Positions 13,690 to 18,670 of a DNA stretch of 24,289 nucleotides are shown piece by piece (within the stretch, counting starts at the first letter, position 1; each line of letters starts with the position of its first letter). Source of the stretch: a virus; the IMG/VR virus record IMGVR_UViG_3300009285_004945, positions 1 to 24,289 of that record; one strand, 5' to 3'. Made by a program: the position numbers and the translations under genes. Below the pieces are notes generated by a model. That model saw only the letters and a program-made list of their open reading frames with translations, made no database searches and had not been told where the DNA came from.

Positions 13690-13982
13690 GATCGACAGTC
13701 TAACGAGGGAGAAGAGGGAGAAGAGGCAGATGGAGAAACCAGCACCTGCCGCAGTTTCGCGGCCGCGGCCCGGCGAGAATCGTGCGCGTAAATCACGGTC
13801 TCGCGCACGATCCGCTCATCATCGATCACCACGATCCGCCGACGGATTCTGTCCGGGGTGCGCTCCGGCGCGAGTGCGGCCAGTGCATCCCGTCGCTGCC
13901 GATCTCTCCCCCAACGAGCCCGCGCCATCCGCCTGCCCCGCTCAGATGCCGCTCTCGCTCTAGCTCGTTGGTACGACGTCAT
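13686..13982 (-). CDS. 98-residue basic hypothetical protein
   Basis: The gene is coupled to the Dam-family methyltransferase by ATGA. Residues 1-45 are extremely rich in Arg and Ala (YQRARARAASERGRRMARAR), so nucleic-acid binding is likely. Residues 45-80 contain a possible strand-helix (RIVVIDDERIVRETVIYA) followed by a basic helix and a Ser/Pro tail. I recognise no family. A similar 'ARW/KR' helix appears in the 65-residue protein two genes upstream, which may hint at a related role. Co-translation with the methyltransferase suggests a partner or DNA-targeting role, but that is speculation. Confidence 0.65.
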   Translation of the reverse strand: MTSYQRARARAASERGRRMARARWGRDRQRRDALAALAPERTPDRIRRRIVVIDDERIVRETVIYAHDSRRAAAAKLRQVLVSPSASSPSSPSLDCRS

Positions 13983-14554
13983 GTGCGACGGACAGGCATC
14001 CGGTCAGTTTCGGATATCTGCCTGTTCGCGCAATCGTCCACGGGCGTAAGCAGTCCGGGGAGTTTCGAGTTGCGCAGAGATTCTGCGTTGTGTTTGCCGA
14101 TAGCCACCAGCACCGAGCCGACCGTTGTATGGCCAGTTGTGCCATCAGGCTTCTCGAATTGGACACGACCCTTGAGCCAGAGCAGCACGTCTGCCTTGGC
14201 CGCGAGCCGCTGAAACCACTGCGTTTCAGGTCTGGCGTTCACCAGCGCGATTCCGTCGCCGTGGGCGGTGAATCGGTCCAGCCATTCATGCACATTGGAA
14301 TATGGCGGATTGAGCCACACTCGGCCCTGCCACGGCATGGAGAGTCCGCATGTCGGGCGGCGCACGTTCCGTTTCGCGTGGCTCTTTGGGCCTGCGCACG
14401 GATCAAGATCGAAATCGCCCAAAGCGCGGGTGATACGTTCCGGCGTGTACCACTCGTCAGAGTAGCCGCCGACACGTTTGCTGACGCCAGGGAACAACAC
14501 GGCGTTTCTCAACACCATTTGCCGGGCGCGGATTTCGTTCAGTGGTTTGCCCAT
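13979..14554 (-). CDS. Phage DNA N6-adenine methyltransferase (Dam family)
   Basis: This 191-residue protein shows the phage Dam-type pattern (Pfam Dam, PF05869): DEWYTPERITRALGDFDLDP (33-52), then the catalytic NPPY motif in VWLNPPYSN (80-87) and 'RFTAHGDGIALVNARPETQWFQ'. In the family the EWYTP...DLDP segment binds S-adenosylmethionine and NPPY places the target adenine. Such enzymes protect phage DNA from host restriction or alter regulation. The target is not readable from sequence, although some relatives modify GATC. The ATG at 14554 lacks a good ribosome-binding site but overlaps the end of a 26-residue ORF, so coupling may drive it. The next gene overlaps by ATGA. Confidence 0.87.
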   Translation of the reverse strand: MGKPLNEIRARQMVLRNAVLFPGVSKRVGGYSDEWYTPERITRALGDFDLDPCAGPKSHAKRNVRRPTCGLSMPWQGRVWLNPPYSNVHEWLDRFTAHGDGIALVNARPETQWFQRLAAKADVLLWLKGRVQFEKPDGTTGHTTVGSVLVAIGKHNAESLRNSKLPGLLTPVDDCANRQISETDRMPVRRT

Positions 14555-14619
14555 AATGCGCGAACAAGACGCTGGACCGAATGGCGGCCAAGCACGTCAG
14601 TTGTAAATTCGAGAGTCAT
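14539..14619 (-). CDS. 26-residue micro-ORF bridging to the Dam-family gene
   Basis: The ATG at 14619 overlaps the stop of the 65-residue gene (ATGA). The frame MTLEFTTDVLGRHSVQRLVR... runs 26 codons and ends 16 bases inside the methyltransferase gene. The methyltransferase start has no clear ribosome-binding site, so this ORF could deliver ribosomes to it. The sequence itself has ordinary composition but no known motif. Its DNA lies in the loop and one arm of a 10-bp inverted repeat (14581-14632). Confidence 0.45.
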   Translation of the reverse strand: MTLEFTTDVLGRHSVQRLVRALWANH

Positions 14620-14813
14620 TGGTGGCCGCCATCGGTCAGCTCTGCGTTCGAGCGCCGGGCGACGCGCTTGGGTTTCTTCGGACGTTTTGCCCATCGCGCT
14701 TTTGCAAGCGCGGACATTTTCGCGGCCCGCTGTTCAGCGGACAGGCCGCTCCACCGGGATTCGGCGGAGCGGCGCTGCATCTCGCGCATGAAGTTCGAGA
14801 TTTCAGGCTTCAT
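14616..14813 (-). CDS. 65-residue basic hypothetical protein
   Basis: I choose the ATG at 14813 because GGAG lies seven bases before it and the coding overlap with the 95-residue gene is then only 11 bases; the longer frame upstream is a shadow. The product, MKPEISNFMREMQRRSAESRW..., is a single basic helical protein with a repeated 'ARW' element (ESRWSGLSAEQRAAKMSALAKARWAKRPKKPKR), suggesting DNA or RNA binding. I do not recognise the family. Confidence 0.65.
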   Translation of the reverse strand: MKPEISNFMREMQRRSAESRWSGLSAEQRAAKMSALAKARWAKRPKKPKRVARRSNAELTDGGHQ

Positions 14814-15090
14814 ACGGGAACTCCATGACGAGGTCATACACACCGTTCTGGATTTCCTGAGCAGTCGCTTCGTGTTTCCCATCACTGAACACCTTCGCGA
14901 AGTAGCTCGCGTCATCGAGAGCGAATTGAGCGCGCTTTTCGTCCGTGAGGATTTCCCCCACGTTGTCCCACTTTTCCGGGTTGCTCAGGCTTAGCAACCA
15001 AGATGGGAAAGAGAAGTCACCGTAGCCGGGGACTTCGTTGCACAGTTCGTAGAGTTTCGCCGCCGCCGCTTTTGCTTCATTCAGTTTCAT
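14803..15090 (-). CDS. 95-residue hypothetical protein
   Basis: The product begins MKLNEAKAAAAKLYELCNEV, continues with aromatic-rich YGDFSFPSWLLSLSNPEKWDN, and ends in the acidic, helical ATAQEIQNGVYDLVMEFPYEA. It is acidic, unlike its basic neighbours, and appears soluble. GAGAG precedes the ATG at 15090. It is the first gene after a gap holding a 17-bp palindrome, so it may begin a separately regulated group (95-residue gene, 65-residue gene, Dam-family gene). The function is unknown. Confidence 0.7.
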   Translation of the reverse strand: MKLNEAKAAAAKLYELCNEVPGYGDFSFPSWLLSLSNPEKWDNVGEILTDEKRAQFALDDASYFAKVFSDGKHEATAQEIQNGVYDLVMEFPYEA

Positions 15091-15148
15091 ATTTGTCTCT
15101 CAGTTGCCCGATCCGGTTCATCCGTATCGTTACCAAGACCCTACTTCA

Positions 15149-15165
15149 TGCGTAGCCGCTACGCA
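15149..15165. promoter_or_regulatory. Perfect 17-base palindrome, candidate operator
   Basis: TGCGTAGC and its exact reverse complement GCTACGCA flank a single central base. With only one unpaired base it suits a dimeric DNA-binding protein better than an RNA hairpin. It lies just after the stop of a 32-residue ORF and 59 bases before the 95-residue gene. I see no strong promoter hexamers beside it. Confidence 0.45.
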
Positions 15166-15169
15166 AGGA

Positions 15170-15268
15170 TTATTTCGCATTTCCGACCGATTGTTTGTAA
15201 GTCGTTGACCGGACGCTCGAACCACGGGATGCAGCGAACCCGGCGATTGCGTCTCTCGTGAATTTCAT
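15170..15268 (-). CDS. 32-residue small ORF downstream of the methyltransferase
   Basis: The ATG at 15268 overlaps the stop of a 15-codon ORF (ATGA). The product MKFTRDAIAGFAASRGSSVR... is basic, Ser/Thr-rich and of normal composition. The region would otherwise be an unexplained 200-base gap. I recognise no motif and no strong ribosome-binding site; coupling from upstream would be needed. Confidence 0.4.
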   Translation of the reverse strand: MKFTRDAIAGFAASRGSSVRSTTYKQSVGNAK

Positions 15269-15312
15269 GCGTCTTGGTCGCCGGGCCGCTGATCCCGGCC
15301 GTTGGGCGTCAT
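15265..15312 (-). CDS. 15-residue coupling micro-ORF after the methyltransferase
   Basis: The ATG at 15312 overlaps the methyltransferase stop (ATGA) and the TGA overlaps the ATG of the 32-residue ORF (ATGA). The peptide MTPNGRDQRPGDQDA is polar and probably has no function of its own. The arrangement would let ribosomes finishing the methyltransferase reach the next ORF. Confidence 0.3.
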   Translation of the reverse strand: MTPNGRDQRPGDQDA

Positions 15313-16127
15313 AGCAGCGTCTCCTCTACTTCGGAGCGCAGCCGCTCGAACGCGGTTTGAAAATGCTTCGGGTCTTTCTCGATGCCGATGAAGTGACGAC
15401 CACTCCGCAGGCATTCGATTCCGGTCGTTCCGCTGCCCATGAAGCAGTCGAGCACGGTTTGCCCCGGCCTCGAGCTGAGGCGCACCAGCGGCATGATTGT
15501 CGGCAGCGGCTTTTGCGTTGGGTGGTCCACCTTGCCAGGTTGCCCGAATCGGTAGGCGTCGGCAGTTATCACATTGGAGCGAGGCACATCTTTGAGTGAT
15601 TCAGCCGTCCACGTTCTGCCGCTCCGATAGGCATACACGCACAGTTCCGCAGCGGACGGCCAGCCAGAACCGGGAGCGGGCGGCACGGGACATTCCTTTG
15701 ACCAGACGAGGAAGCGCGTCTTCCAGCCTTTCGACTCGAGTTGGTTCACGACCGTCCCGAATTGCCGATGCCCGACCCACGCATAGATTGAGCCGTGAGG
15801 CGCGAGCTTGTCAGCGCACAGTTCGATTGCGCGCCGCACAGTTTCGGTTGTGGCTTCCCAGTCGCGGTCGCCCTCGAAGAAGTCCAAGTCAGTAGTTCTG
15901 CCGTAGCGCGTTTCCCATCGTCCGACGCCGGCCACGCTCACGGAGTATGGAGGGTCAGTCACCACCAAGTCCACGAGCGGCAGGGTAGGCAGCACGTCCA
16001 GACAGTCCGCATTGTAGAGAGTCGCAGTGGAATGACGCCCAACCAGACGCTGCACGCAAAGACGCCCCGCTTCTCCGTTTCGGGAGTCGGCTGGCGTCAC
16101 TACGTCTTGCGTGTTGGCGGTAGTCAT
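15309..16127 (-). CDS. DNA methyltransferase, beta class (N6-adenine or N4-cytosine)
   Basis: This is a 272-residue enzyme. The catalytic motif IV, VVTDPPYSVS (DPPY at 58-61), comes before the S-adenosylmethionine-binding motif I, DCFMGSGTTG (about 227-236), with 'FIGIEKD' (motif II) after it. That order defines the beta class of amino-methyltransferases, and DPPY favours N6-adenine. VDHPTQKPLPTI, conserved before motif I in this class, is also present. No restriction partner lies nearby, so it is probably an orphan methylase for self-protection or regulation. I use the ATG at 16127, overlapped by a 12-codon ORF (ATGA); the longer frame from 16181 overlaps the upstream gene more and its extra residues look unrelated. 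Confidence 0.9.
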   Translation of the reverse strand: MTTANTQDVVTPADSRNGEAGRLCVQRLVGRHSTATLYNADCLDVLPTLPLVDLVVTDPPYSVSVAGVGRWETRYGRTTDLDFFEGDRDWEATTETVRRAIELCADKLAPHGSIYAWVGHRQFGTVVNQLESKGWKTRFLVWSKECPVPPAPGSGWPSAAELCVYAYRSGRTWTAESLKDVPRSNVITADAYRFGQPGKVDHPTQKPLPTIMPLVRLSSRPGQTVLDCFMGSGTTGIECLRSGRHFIGIEKDPKHFQTAFERLRSEVEETLL

Positions 16128-16162
16128 GGTCGGGCGTCTTGCGTGAGCTTTTCGTTCTCCAT
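16124..16162 (-). CDS. 12-residue coupling micro-ORF before the methyltransferase
   Basis: The ATG shares its A with the stop of the ribbon-helix-helix gene (TGATG), and the TGA overlaps the methyltransferase ATG (ATGA). The peptide is MENEKLTQDARP. It exactly spans the gap, and the methyltransferase start has no clear ribosome-binding site, so reinitiation through this frame is plausible. Confidence 0.35.
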   Translation of the reverse strand: MENEKLTQDARP

Positions 16163-16551
16163 CACTCGCCACTCGCCTCATCGCACGTCTCGGTTAGCCA
16201 TTCCGAGAGCGTTTGTCCGTTGTGTTTTGCGGCGCGGACGTAGCGGTTTTTGCGCTCTATCGTTACCCGGAGATGGATGTGTCCGCCGGCTGGCTGATCG
16301 CCAGTCGGCAGGCGTCCACGGGGATTGTCCAGGTCGGCGAGTGTTTCGATCAGGAGGTTTAGATCATCCTCGCTCAGTTTAGCAATTCCGCCGTGAGCCA
16401 TCGCGTTGCTGAGCGCTCGCGCGACGCGCTGCTCGACAATTGGAGAGCGTTTGGCGATCGCCTCCATCGCGATATTTATTTCGGCGGCGTTGGAGTTGCT
16501 GCATTTGAGCGCCACGCGCAGAGCGTGACGCCAGATTTCGGATTTGGTCAT
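16162..16551 (-). CDS. Protein with C-terminal ribbon-helix-helix domain
   Basis: This is a 129-residue protein. Residues 91-125 (HIHLRVTIERKNRYVRAAKH through TLSEWLTETCDEA) fit the ribbon-helix-helix pattern: a short strand, a basic helix, a G-Q-T-L turn and a second helix beginning S-E-W. Such domains bind operator DNA as dimers. The N-terminal 85 residues are helical and may form an oligomerisation or regulatory domain. The ATG overlaps the upstream stop (ATGA). It lies 0.5 kb downstream of promoter-like repeat copy 1 and is a candidate to bind the inverted repeats there, which is inference. An antitoxin is less likely because no toxin-like partner is adjacent. Confidence 0.75.
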   Translation of the reverse strand: MTKSEIWRHALRVALKCSNSNAAEINIAMEAIAKRSPIVEQRVARALSNAMAHGGIAKLSEDDLNLLIETLADLDNPRGRLPTGDQPAGGHIHLRVTIERKNRYVRAAKHNGQTLSEWLTETCDEASGE

Positions 16552-16988
16552 ACGATCTCGAATGTTTCAGTTGTGGCCCACTCTCCGACCAGCTCGCGAG
16601 CGAGCCTATCGCAGTATTGAGCCGGGGTTTCGGTATTCGGCCAGTAGGAGCAGAGCATCCGGAACGTTTGTGTCACGGGCCTGCCCGTCATTCCCCAAAT
16701 CGCGGCGAGTTTGGCGTGTTCTGGTGTTCCGGGCCGATGCCCGTTTATCCTCTGATCCAGTTCTGTTTTGGTAATGCAGCGCAGCCGAATTGTCCCACCG
16801 ATCACCGGGAGTGTGGCGAGTAGCCGTCCGAGCTGAGTCTGTATCTGGCTCGCGTCGGGGTTGATGTCTGCCCAGTGAGCGTATCCGGGGTATGGTCCGA
16901 ACGGAGTCGCAAAATACTGTTCTTCGGACGACTGGACACAGGGGAGGTTTGCTGCTGCTGCGTATCGAGGATGGACTGTGGTTTTCAT
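16548..16988 (-). CDS. 146-residue hypothetical protein heading cassette 2
   Basis: This is the first gene after promoter-like repeat copy 1. It begins MKTTVHPRYAAAANLP; the first five codons resemble those of the gene behind repeat copy 2 (MKTTV), but the rest of the two proteins does not. The middle has IQTQLGRLLATLPVIGGTIR and an 'HRPGTPEHAKLAAIWGMTGR' segment, and the C-terminus is acidic and aromatic. It appears globular and soluble. I recognise no family. The RHH gene follows by ATGA overlap, so the two are probably co-expressed. Confidence 0.7.
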   Translation of the reverse strand: MKTTVHPRYAAAANLPCVQSSEEQYFATPFGPYPGYAHWADINPDASQIQTQLGRLLATLPVIGGTIRLRCITKTELDQRINGHRPGTPEHAKLAAIWGMTGRPVTQTFRMLCSYWPNTETPAQYCDRLARELVGEWATTETFEIV

Positions 16989-17023
16989 TTTGTCTCAGTT
17001 TTGTTCTGTTCCCGGATTCGCCG

Positions 17024-17092
17024 GGGCGATTGTCAGTTTCATCTGACGTGATGAATTTAGCAGATTGCGGCATTGTGTCAACACATAATTCG
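17024..17092 (-). promoter_or_regulatory. Promoter/operator-like 69-bp repeat, copy 1
   Basis: The 69 bases are identical to 18296-18364. On the minus strand they hold a perfect -35 TTGACA (17081-17076), a 16-base spacer and a -10-like TAAATT (17059-17054). The -35 lies within the inverted repeat TGTGT-N2-ACACA (17074-17085). A second inverted repeat, GTCAG-N6-CTGAC (17032-17047), falls at the expected transcription start. The layout suggests a repressible promoter driving the 146-residue gene, whose start is 66 bases downstream of the -10. Confidence 0.75.
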
Positions 17093-17170
17093 CCCAGCCG
17101 AACCAGCCGCTGGACACGAACCGGCGCTGGTCGGTGCGGGATTGGTTGGTCTGGAGGATTCTGTCGTCAT
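17078..17170 (-). CDS. Possible 30-residue ORF after the MazG-like gene
   Basis: The ATG at 17170 overlaps the MazG-like stop (ATGA). The frame runs 30 codons (MTTESSRPTNPAPTSAGSCP...) and its TGA falls inside the -35 element of repeat copy 1. The composition is low-complexity Ser/Pro/Ala, so it may be a chance frame. It fills the intergenic gap like the other micro-ORFs here. Confidence 0.25.
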   Translation of the reverse strand: MTTESSRPTNPAPTSAGSCPAAGSAGRIMC

Positions 17171-17751
17171 GGGTTGTTCGGCGCCGGCGTGTCCTCCCCG
17201 ACGCCTGCGCCGGCCGGGTCCTTCTTCCAGTCCCGCTTCCGCACCTCCTCCCATGTGTTAATCACCACACCATCGAAATCCATGTCGGAGTTCCTGCCGA
17301 ACAGCCGCAGCCAGACGATCAGCCGTCCGACCTGGGTGCGGCGGGCCATCTCGTGGTCCTCGGTGGTCCGGATGCCCTGGGCGCACTTGAGATGGGCGTG
17401 GGCCAGCTTTCCGACCTCAATCGCGCTGTTAATGACTGGGTCGGCGGTGACATGGGAGCGGGCGCCGATGATCTCGCACTGGGCCATGTTGAGGCCGGCC
17501 CGGCCGCAGTAGTCAGCCAGGTAGATCATCATGTCGCCGACGGCGTCCTCAGTATTTGCGTGGTGCGTGTCCTTATCCCCGAGAAGGTCGCCTGTGTCCC
17601 TCGCATTCTTCCACCTGGTGTAGTGTTCATCCAGTTCGCCCAGTTCCTCGACGGCGCCGAGCAGGGGGTTGACGGTGGGTTGATCGCCGAAGTTGTGGCG
17701 GGACCACAGGGAGACTTCGTCCTGGAGGATATTCAGATCGAGTTCAAACAT
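17167..17751 (-). CDS. MazG-like nucleotide pyrophosphohydrolase
   Basis: This 194-residue protein belongs to the all-alpha NTP-pyrophosphohydrolase superfamily. Residues 30-40 (LLGAVEELGEL, with E35, E36 and E39) form the first metal-binding helix. Residues 68-82 (EDAVGDMMIYLADYC, with D73) form the second, in the 'DAxGD-x2-IYL' variant seen in stand-alone MazG-like proteins. Such enzymes hydrolyse NTPs, dNTPs or (in phages) possibly alarmone-type nucleotides, altering the nucleotide pool or the starvation response. The C-terminal 110 residues are helical and unassigned. The ATG at 17751 is preceded by a C-rich leader without a Shine-Dalgarno site. The 78 extra upstream residues in frame look like a shadow of the preceding gene. 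Confidence 0.82.
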   Translation of the reverse strand: MFELDLNILQDEVSLWSRHNFGDQPTVNPLLGAVEELGELDEHYTRWKNARDTGDLLGDKDTHHANTEDAVGDMMIYLADYCGRAGLNMAQCEIIGARSHVTADPVINSAIEVGKLAHAHLKCAQGIRTTEDHEMARRTQVGRLIVWLRLFGRNSDMDFDGVVINTWEEVRKRDWKKDPAGAGVGEDTPAPNNP

Positions 17752-17754
17752 GGT

Positions 17755-17792
17755 GGGATGGGGTGGTTGGTTGGGTGGTTGGGTGGGGTGGG
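17755..17792 (+). promoter_or_regulatory. G-quadruplex-capable G-run array upstream of the MazG-like gene
   Basis: Six runs of three or four G occur on the plus strand. The last four (17773-17792) have loops of 5, 1 and 1 bases and meet the usual G-quadruplex rule. The array fills the 46-base gap before the MazG-like ATG, on the template strand, and the mRNA leader is correspondingly C-rich with no Shine-Dalgarno site. It could slow transcription or affect supercoiling; a simple repeat with no function is the alternative. Confidence 0.5.
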
Positions 17793-17797
17793 TGATT

Positions 17798-18241
17798 TCA
17801 GGAACGGGACCAGCATCCGCATACGTGCTGCTTGTAGCCCCATTGAATCCACAAGGTGTAGCCAGTGATCTCCTGCCCCTCGGCAATCCAGCGGCATTCG
17901 TGTTTGGTCTCGCCGATAGACACCAATTCAGGCGCCCCGACCATCCGGCGCTGGCAGCCTGATTCCCCGACGTGGTGGCCCCCACGGTGGGAACTGGTGC
18001 CGCAATGGCAGTAGTGGTGGGCGTTGCAGTGCCATCGGAACCCGATCATGAGGCGCCAGACCTGGAGGGTGGTGCCGGTGCAGCCGGGGTGGAGGCGTCC
18101 GTTGACGGTGACGTGGCTGCGGGGATTGGGGCCGCGGTACCAGCCGGCGCACAATTCCAGCCGTCCGATCCGGAAGGACCAGGCGGCGGCGTCTGGGATT
18201 CGGTGGTGCGGGGAGTTCACGTAGTAGACGGTGGTTTTCAT
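17798..18241 (-). CDS. 147-residue Cys/His-rich orphan protein heading cassette 1
   Basis: This is the first gene after promoter-like repeat copy 2. It has AAAGGA eight bases before the ATG at 18241 and begins MKTTVYYVNSPHHRIPDAAA. The N-terminal half is beta-rich (FRIGRLELCAGWYRGPNPRS, then LQVWRLMIGFRWHCNAHHYC). The middle holds clustered Cys and His (CHCGTSSHRGGHHVGESGC), which could bind zinc or iron. The C-terminus, ETKHECRWIAEGQEITGYTL, then WIQWGYKQHVCGCW, repeats the Cys/Trp pattern. I recognise no family. Competing frames across this stretch are Pro/Arg-rich and lack a start signal. Confidence 0.65.
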   Translation of the reverse strand: MKTTVYYVNSPHHRIPDAAAWSFRIGRLELCAGWYRGPNPRSHVTVNGRLHPGCTGTTLQVWRLMIGFRWHCNAHHYCHCGTSSHRGGHHVGESGCQRRMVGAPELVSIGETKHECRWIAEGQEITGYTLWIQWGYKQHVCGCWSRS

Positions 18242-18295
18242 CGGGTGTTTCCTTTGGGTTAAGGGTTGGGATGGGTCCAGCGGCCGGCTCGCGTC

Positions 18296-18364
18296 GGGCG
18301 ATTGTCAGTTTCATCTGACGTGATGAATTTAGCAGATTGCGGCATTGTGTCAACACATAATTCG
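18296..18364 (-). promoter_or_regulatory. Promoter/operator-like 69-bp repeat, copy 2
   Basis: This copy is identical to copy 1. The -35 TTGACA is at 18353-18348 and the -10-like TAAATT at 18331-18326. The inverted repeats are at 18346-18357 and 18304-18319. It starts 18 bases after the stop of the excisionase/MerR-type HTH gene and its -10 is 85 bases from the ATG of the Cys/His-rich gene. It is the likely promoter for that gene and the MazG-like gene. Confidence 0.75.
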
Positions 18365-18382: not shown

Positions 18383-18670
18383 TTACCGCCAGTACTCGGG
18401 ATCCTCGGCCTGCGCGGCGAACTGCGTGACGCTCCCGAGATCGTACTCCCGTTTCCCGGGCCGCGTCCGGCGATGCCGGATGCGCCCCTCATCCGCCAGC
18501 CGGTAAATGCTCGCGATGCTCACCCCGAGGATCGCCGCGGCCTGGCGCGTCGTGAGCCAAGTCTCGCCGGCTGCTGGCAGCCGCGGGCGGAGCACATAGC
18601 TCCCGTCACCGCGCGGCATCAAGTCGGCCAGGATCGGCAGCGTCAACTGTCTCTCCGTGGAGCTGGTCAT
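18383..18670 (-). CDS. Excisionase/MerR-type helix-turn-helix protein
   Basis: This is a 95-residue protein. Residues 38-78 contain WLTTRQAAAILGVSIASIYRLADEGRI followed by the wing 'HRRTRPGKREYDLGSV'. This is the HTH_17 (excisionase / MerR-like) fold, with a recognition helix SIASIYRLADEG. The N-terminal 37 residues are a short strand-rich extension. It should bind DNA and may act as a transcription regulator or an architectural factor. It is the last gene before promoter-like copy 2, so control of that element is an attractive but untested idea. The ATG overlaps the zinc-ribbon stop (ATGA). Confidence 0.8.
   Translation of the reverse strand: MTSSTERQLTLPILADLMPRGDGSYVLRPRLPAAGETWLTTRQAAAILGVSIASIYRLADEGRIRHRRTRPGKREYDLGSVTQFAAQAEDPEYWR

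Follow-up and report, generated by a model that had tools for sequence, protein, structure and literature searches.

An identical predicted promoter-leader module heads two units of a putative integron-type cassette array in a B3-like phage and is conserved in an unrelated phage

Integron cassettes are mostly promoterless and fall silent when moved away from Pc, the promoter that reads the first cassettes from the head of an attC array. Cassettes bearing their own promoter have been described, including cmlA1, toxin-antitoxin cassettes, and cassettes of Vibrio rotiferianus (PMC8876359). Clusters of attC sites lacking an integron-integrase (CALINs) are known from phages, where N6_N4 methyltransferase cassettes have already been reported and where the carriers include a prophage of Shewanella M16-3, a strain noted for its Mu-like prophages (Qi et al. 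2023, PMC9892861). Repeats combining a promoter with a stem-loop, the PeSLs, are likewise known from T4-type phages (Arbiol 2010 and Comeau 2014, as cited in PMC4503421 and PMC3950731).

The locus described here resembles phage CALINs in having two or more attC-like sites that share an orientation, a record free of intI, and DNA methyltransferase cargo that includes N6_N4_Mtase, but differs in belonging to a B3-like Mu-type phage, in the likeness of its attC sites to that of a Verrucomicrobiota integron, and in carrying an identical promoter module on two units. As in promoter-bearing cassettes, a promoter close to the cassette 5′ end would make expression independent of array position, and the cmlA cassette, too, has leader hairpins; unlike in those cassettes, two different units carry one identical module, and a second phage has it again beside a conserved gene for an RHH-type protein. 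The layout in that second phage, where a single promoter would read the first cassettes of an attC array from its head, recalls integron Pc, except that no intI was found, no attI was recognized, and the promoter is tied to the RHH gene. With the T4-type PeSLs, as the citing papers describe them, the locus shares a repeated promoter and stem-loop between accessory genes, an arrangement proposed to mediate modular shuffling; however, PeSLs are there composites of an early promoter and a terminator stem-loop, present in many copies over hyperplastic regions, whereas here the stem-loop lies at +1 and lacks a T-tract, the copies number two, and attC sites are present.

The window, that is, the whole stretch of DNA analyzed, is the complete 24,289-b IMG/VR contig IMGVR_UViG_3300009285_004945, a linear fragment of a B3-like, Mu-type phage. 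It encodes a MuA-like protein, matched in related Mu-type loci, which precedes a MuB-like ATPase (TniB/AAA_22 matches). A Mu gp27-like protein is also encoded, as is a terminase that shares 57-60% identity with its counterparts in Pseudomonas phage B3 and Leptolyngbya phage Lsp-JY19. The record lacks the repressor end of this Mu-like genome. In the accessory region, the sequence-only reading had described a 69-bp stretch as perfectly duplicated, and 17024..17092 (copy A) and 18296..18364 (copy B) are indeed identical at 69/69 bases, both reading CGAATTATGTGTTGACACAATGCCGCAATCTGCTAAATTCATCACGTCAGATGAAACTGACAATCGCCC on the minus strand. The two copies, 1272 bp apart, form the longest direct repeat within the window, and identity of their flanks drops to background simultaneously on both sides. 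A search of the rest of the phage, as had been proposed, confirmed that the record holds these two copies only, the second-best ungapped match to the 69-mer in the window being 31/69. For an exact 69-bp repeat in 24 kb, there is no realistic chance explanation. By eye, the 69-mer is not itself an attC site, its ends not being inverted repeats and AAC/GTT core boxes being absent. Other B3-like phages contain exact direct repeats of 47-57 bp, 0.7-1 kb apart and not obviously promoter-like (L053:1329-1385 and 2054-2110; L054:9973 and 10978).

The promoter-like layout, TTGACA-16-TAAATT on the minus strand, was read correctly for both copies (-35 at 17081-17076 and -10 at 17059-17054 in copy A; 18353-18348 and 18331-18326 in copy B). 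With hexamers at the sigma-70 spacing of 16-18 nt, a score of 10/12, and a TG before the -10 (extended -10), the two copies rank first in a simple sigma-70 scan of 15-24.3 kb, in which only 4 matches reach at least 9/12, against 1.7 in shuffles. Both inverted repeats reported earlier, TGTGT-N2-ACACA and GTCAG-N6-CTGAC, are also present, and exact GTCAG-N6-CTGAC is confined in the window to the two repeat copies (17047-17032 and 18319-18304). As GTCAG-ATGAAA-CTGAC, it begins six bases past the -10, at the predicted +1, so that a transcript starting there would open with a GUCAG-AUGAAA-CUGAC hairpin of 5 bp (-6.2 kcal/mol), which, having no T-tract, is no terminator. Beyond copy A, a leader continues to the start codon of the first gene (16983..17023, minus strand; alignment to the second phage and fold) and contains a second hairpin, CCCGG-N5-CCGGG. 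We refer to the repeat as a predicted promoter module.

All cargo genes are encoded on the minus strand. Upstream of copy B lies the last gene before the array, which encodes an HTH_17 (MerR/excisionase-like) protein (18383..18670; domain search). The first gene under copy B is orfB (17798..18241), a Cys/His-rich orphan, followed by a MazG-like pyrophosphatase (17167..17751; phrog_715, E 3.4e-8); under copy A, the orphan orfA (16548..16988) is followed by the RHH-type protein (16162..16551). The two first genes both open with MKTTV, as had been noticed, and are otherwise unlike. Neither orfA nor orfB has a Pfam or PHROG family or a phage match, and searches with orfB and MazG returned no close relative with context. 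The RHH assignment is itself weak, since all database names are (TacA1, LmbU, AcrIF25), and the AlphaFold model (pLDDT 51) is too poor to use. Further along follow an N6/N4 DNA methyltransferase (15309..16181; PF01555, 2.5e-29), two small ORFs (14803-15090 and 14616-14915, together 14616..15090), and a Dam-type N6-adenine methyltransferase (13979..14554; PF05869, 3.8e-12; TIGR01712). The small-ORF cassette seems to have its own promoter with the dyad TTGCGTAGCGGCTACGCATGAAGTAGGGT (15130-15215). That the module heads two cargo units, as first proposed, holds; the proposed partition into a MazG unit and an RHH-methyltransferase unit does not, because attC-like sites divide the cargo into orfB-MazG, orfA-RHH, the methyltransferase, the two small ORFs, and Dam.

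These sites, all on the minus strand, comprise an attC1-like site after MazG (17097..17193), with R′ GTTCGGC at 17103-17097, a canonical 3′ half, and a decayed or unassigned 5′ half; attC1b after the RHH stop codon (16037..16160; R″ GGAGAAC, R′ GTTGGGC), with a mismatch-free stem and two extrahelical bases; attC2 after the N6/N4 methyltransferase (15216..15307; R″ GCCCAAC, R′ GTTCGAG); and attC3 after ORF 14616-14915 (14559..14652; R″ CTCGAAC, R′ GTTCGCG), with a long stem and two extrahelical bases. The Dam start adjoins attC3, and the reading frame of the N6/N4 methyltransferase extends back through attC1b into the RHH end (16037-16181), with a likely ATG (about 16127) within the attC1b loop, so that this attC site would supply the gene start.

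One alternative is that the 69-bp repeat arose by simple local duplication and that the hairpins, rather than being attC sites, are unrelated repeats or terminators. It can point to the plain 23-mer consensus of the HS286/287 primers (sequence confirmed in papers), which as an attC detector did not rise above shuffles in this GC-rich window. A strict GTTRRRY/RYYYAAC scan, which found the reference site linked to intI, returned none in the window: GTTGGGC fits GTTRRRY, and GTTCGGC, GTTCGAG, and GTTCGCG deviate at position 4, most R′ boxes here being GTTCGNN. A 3′-half motif drawn from the second phage and the intI-linked site matches the window 3 times (17120, 15238, and 14581, minus strand), each time in a gene end or immediately after one, where 1.6 Mb of background gave 1 match and shuffled windows 0.02 each. 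The bottom strands of attC1b, attC2, and attC3 fold as S1 - extrahelical G - S2 - extrahelical A - S3 with 0 mismatches (attC2 in a variant with two unpaired A), as do 4/5 sites of the second phage and an attC beside an integron-integrase in the Verrucomicrobiota genome G169 (L123:17749-17871), which has the same arms, AAGCTGAGCGACC...GGTTCGCTCCAGCGCGTGGTTAGAC. A two-bulge architecture also seen at an intI-linked site, the position behind successive stop codons without T-tracts, and the junctions considered below make the terminator-or-repeat alternative very improbable. Integron-integrases score above the cut-off in 109/388 Verrucomicrobiota genomes, some of which hold 4-6 copies.

IntI cuts at G↓TTRRRY (PMC8876359), so that the last six R′ bases at a junction come with the following cassette, whose R″ they should complement. 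In the second phage all junctions agree at 7/7 positions (GTTCTGC/GCAGAAC, GTTAGGA/TCCTAAC, GTTCGGC/GCCGAAC, and GTTCTAC/GTAGAAC), and so do GTTGGGC/GCCCAAC, GTTCGAG/CTCGAAC, and GTTCGCG/CGCGAAC in the window. The last of these is post hoc, CGCGAAC (14024..14030, minus strand) having been found by its complementarity to attC3 R′ as a candidate R″ of a truncated attC4. The attC1 junction reaches 5/7, with GTTCGGC instead of the GTTCTCC expected from the R″ of the orfA-RHH unit. Overall, the rule is obeyed at 7/8 junctions of the two phages, with 54/56 positions complementary, a total that permuted R″ boxes reach in 24/200,000 trials, which indicates that most units arrived as circular cassettes. 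The integron-integrase profile TIGR02249 has no match in the window or in the record of the second phage, both fragments. With attC1b, attC2, and attC3 providing at least two attC sites in array next to the degenerate attC1, the cargo region is, judging from sequence, an integron-type cassette array without integrase, and both records are CALIN-like. The 69-bp repeat may recombine, as had been suggested, yet as structures for exchange the attC sites are more evident.

Conservation of the module in other phages, which the sequence-only reading had made a test of its claim, was found in one phage. None of the B3-like relatives (loci from terminase, MuB, and host scans) contains a copy of the module or a homologue of orfA, orfB, RHH, or MazG. 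A scan with the RHH protein yielded one relative, in an unrelated phage (L104, IMGVR_UViG_3300028819_000052), with 74% amino acid identity over all 129 residues, and the same module lies upstream of this homologous gene. Upstream of the L104 RHH operon, AATTATGTGTTGACA agrees 15/15 with the window module; the -35-to-hairpin distance is again exactly 28 nt, with 16/28 bases kept; and the 65 nt of leader between the +1 hairpin and a point slightly beyond the start codon show 97% identity, copy A and 16983..17023 together reaching 87% over 108 nt. The -10 there, GAAACT, is poor. Since the -35, the spacing, and the leader are kept while the first gene under the module (L104:4655-5008) differs from orfA, the module goes with RHH. 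In phage records, plasmid records, and 388 Verrucomicrobiota genomes, no module carrier besides L104 was found, and the RHH profile and leader DNA had no match in the 388 genomes.

The L104 module follows a phage gene with no core site between, and similar imperfect hairpins stand behind successive genes; 15220-15303 of the window, after the methyltransferase, resembles an L104 stretch after an unrelated gene. Five attC sites lie within 2 kb of L104 (5600-7700), where a PAPS-reductase-like cassette is followed by a DNA methyltransferase gene, and a strict RYYYAAC...GTTRRRY hairpin occurs in the same phage far from the array (L106:7523-7641). The attC type and the MuB kinship suggest Verrucomicrobiota-type hosts for such phages.

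Taken together, we consider it reasonably probable that the repeat is a promoter-plus-leader that stands at the head of two successive units in an integron-derived array, was recently duplicated, and places the units under common expression and RHH control. The module would belong with a unit of promoter, variable gene, and RHH, which also heads the attC array in L104, and would act like integron Pc or a cassette-borne promoter, allowing captured cassettes to be expressed in the phage. The orfB-MazG and orfA-RHH units would fire together, along with genes read through behind them, including the methyltransferase if attC hairpins stop transcription weakly. The RHH protein, encoded by the second gene of its own unit, would most probably bind the +1 dyad and set or damp the level of both units. 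As candidate operators, the two dyads fared unevenly: the +1 hairpin is conserved in L104, and TGTGT..ACACA is broken there (TGTGTTGACAATA), which makes the -35 dyad a poor operator candidate. RHH is possibly an autoregulator at the +1 dyad, and we favor it over the HTH protein because it is co-conserved with the module.

The choice of regulator bears on another reading, in which the module is a phage operator or promoter under the phage repressor or the HTH protein and the cassettes happened to be inserted downstream of it. Repeated early promoters have precedents in other phages, 18 bp separate copy B from the HTH gene upstream, and the repressor end is missing from the record. Nevertheless, the module travels into L104 with RHH rather than with HTH or Mu-type genes, and no B3-like relative fetched has a copy; we regard control by the phage as unlikely.

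Better conservation of the leader than of the promoter core raises the question of whether the conserved part acts mainly in RNA, the 5′ hairpin protecting the message or a leader ORF giving translational attenuation, for which the cmlA cassette is a precedent (PMC8876359). The short leader ORF reads MKLTIAPANPG...; the ORFs of copy A and L104, of 15 and 18 codons, stop at the next start codon or shortly before it, and in two unrelated phages (L089:2798-2848 and L094:594-644) GTCAGATGGAACTGACAA, 17/18 like the window, lies at the predicted +1 of strong TTGACA/TATAAT promoters. Against this, no Shine-Dalgarno was found before the leader ATG, and the frame is not kept at its end, owing to a 1-nt indel, and runs into orfB in copy B, so that the peptide was rejected as a conserved coding feature. 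Rfam gave no match, and GTCAG-N6-CTGAC at +1 occurs at 8 distinct places versus 3 for a control pattern, too weak for a family and unconvincing as a general phage element. The hairpin may still be a recurrent 5′-end element of phage messages, but a role mainly in RNA seems doubtful to us.

We return to the favored promoter-plus-leader reading to ask how two copies could have arisen. Copy A begins 5 bp after attC1 R′, within the orfA-RHH unit and about 10 bp from the cut, the left flank of that unit being TTCGGCTGGG. Copy B begins 18 bp after the HTH stop, with no core site at its left edge, and it is copy A, rather than copy B, that runs on into the L104-like leader. That copy A lies inside a clean cassette is suggested by attC1 R′ and the 3′ half, the 5′ half being decayed. 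Because the copies are identical even in the spacer where L104 differs, they must have been duplicated or converted recently, probably through recombination or cassette insertion, and the order of events can be reconstructed in two ways. One route that fits is that the module is native to cassettes of promoter, gene, and RHH, one of which would have been inserted behind orfB-MazG. Alternatively, a circular orfB-MazG cassette with its promoter would have recombined with an identical promoter at the array head, leaving two flanking copies. Homologous integration of this kind accounts for the perfect identity, for the lack of a core site to the left of copy B, for the continuation of copy A, not B, into the L104-like leader, and for the sole poor junction at attC1 (5/7), where GTTCGGC has a perfect complement, GCCGAAC, in the MazG end. 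However, GCCGAAC is perhaps not a true R″, since with it the attC1 arms pair poorly (4 mismatches), and neither a circular intermediate nor an unrecombined relative was found. Given that poor pairing, we treat homologous integration as possible, while leaning against it. The broader scenario, in which a mobile promoter-RHH unit of phages places its own promoter and autoregulator ahead of captured cassettes and promoter duplication by homologous recombination builds a co-regulated regulon without integrase, is more speculative still and would surprise us if it held in full.

A literature search returned no report of one promoter-leader module common to two array units and to two unrelated phages with an RHH gene, and one promoter module shared in this way appears to be new. 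A phage in which attC cassettes are accompanied by a conserved promoter-leader and a candidate regulator illustrates how captured cassettes could come to expression and how recombination at the promoter could enlarge arrays. On this evidence, phages of presumed Verrucomicrobiota-type hosts are likely to carry integron cassettes, among them methyltransferases useful against restriction.
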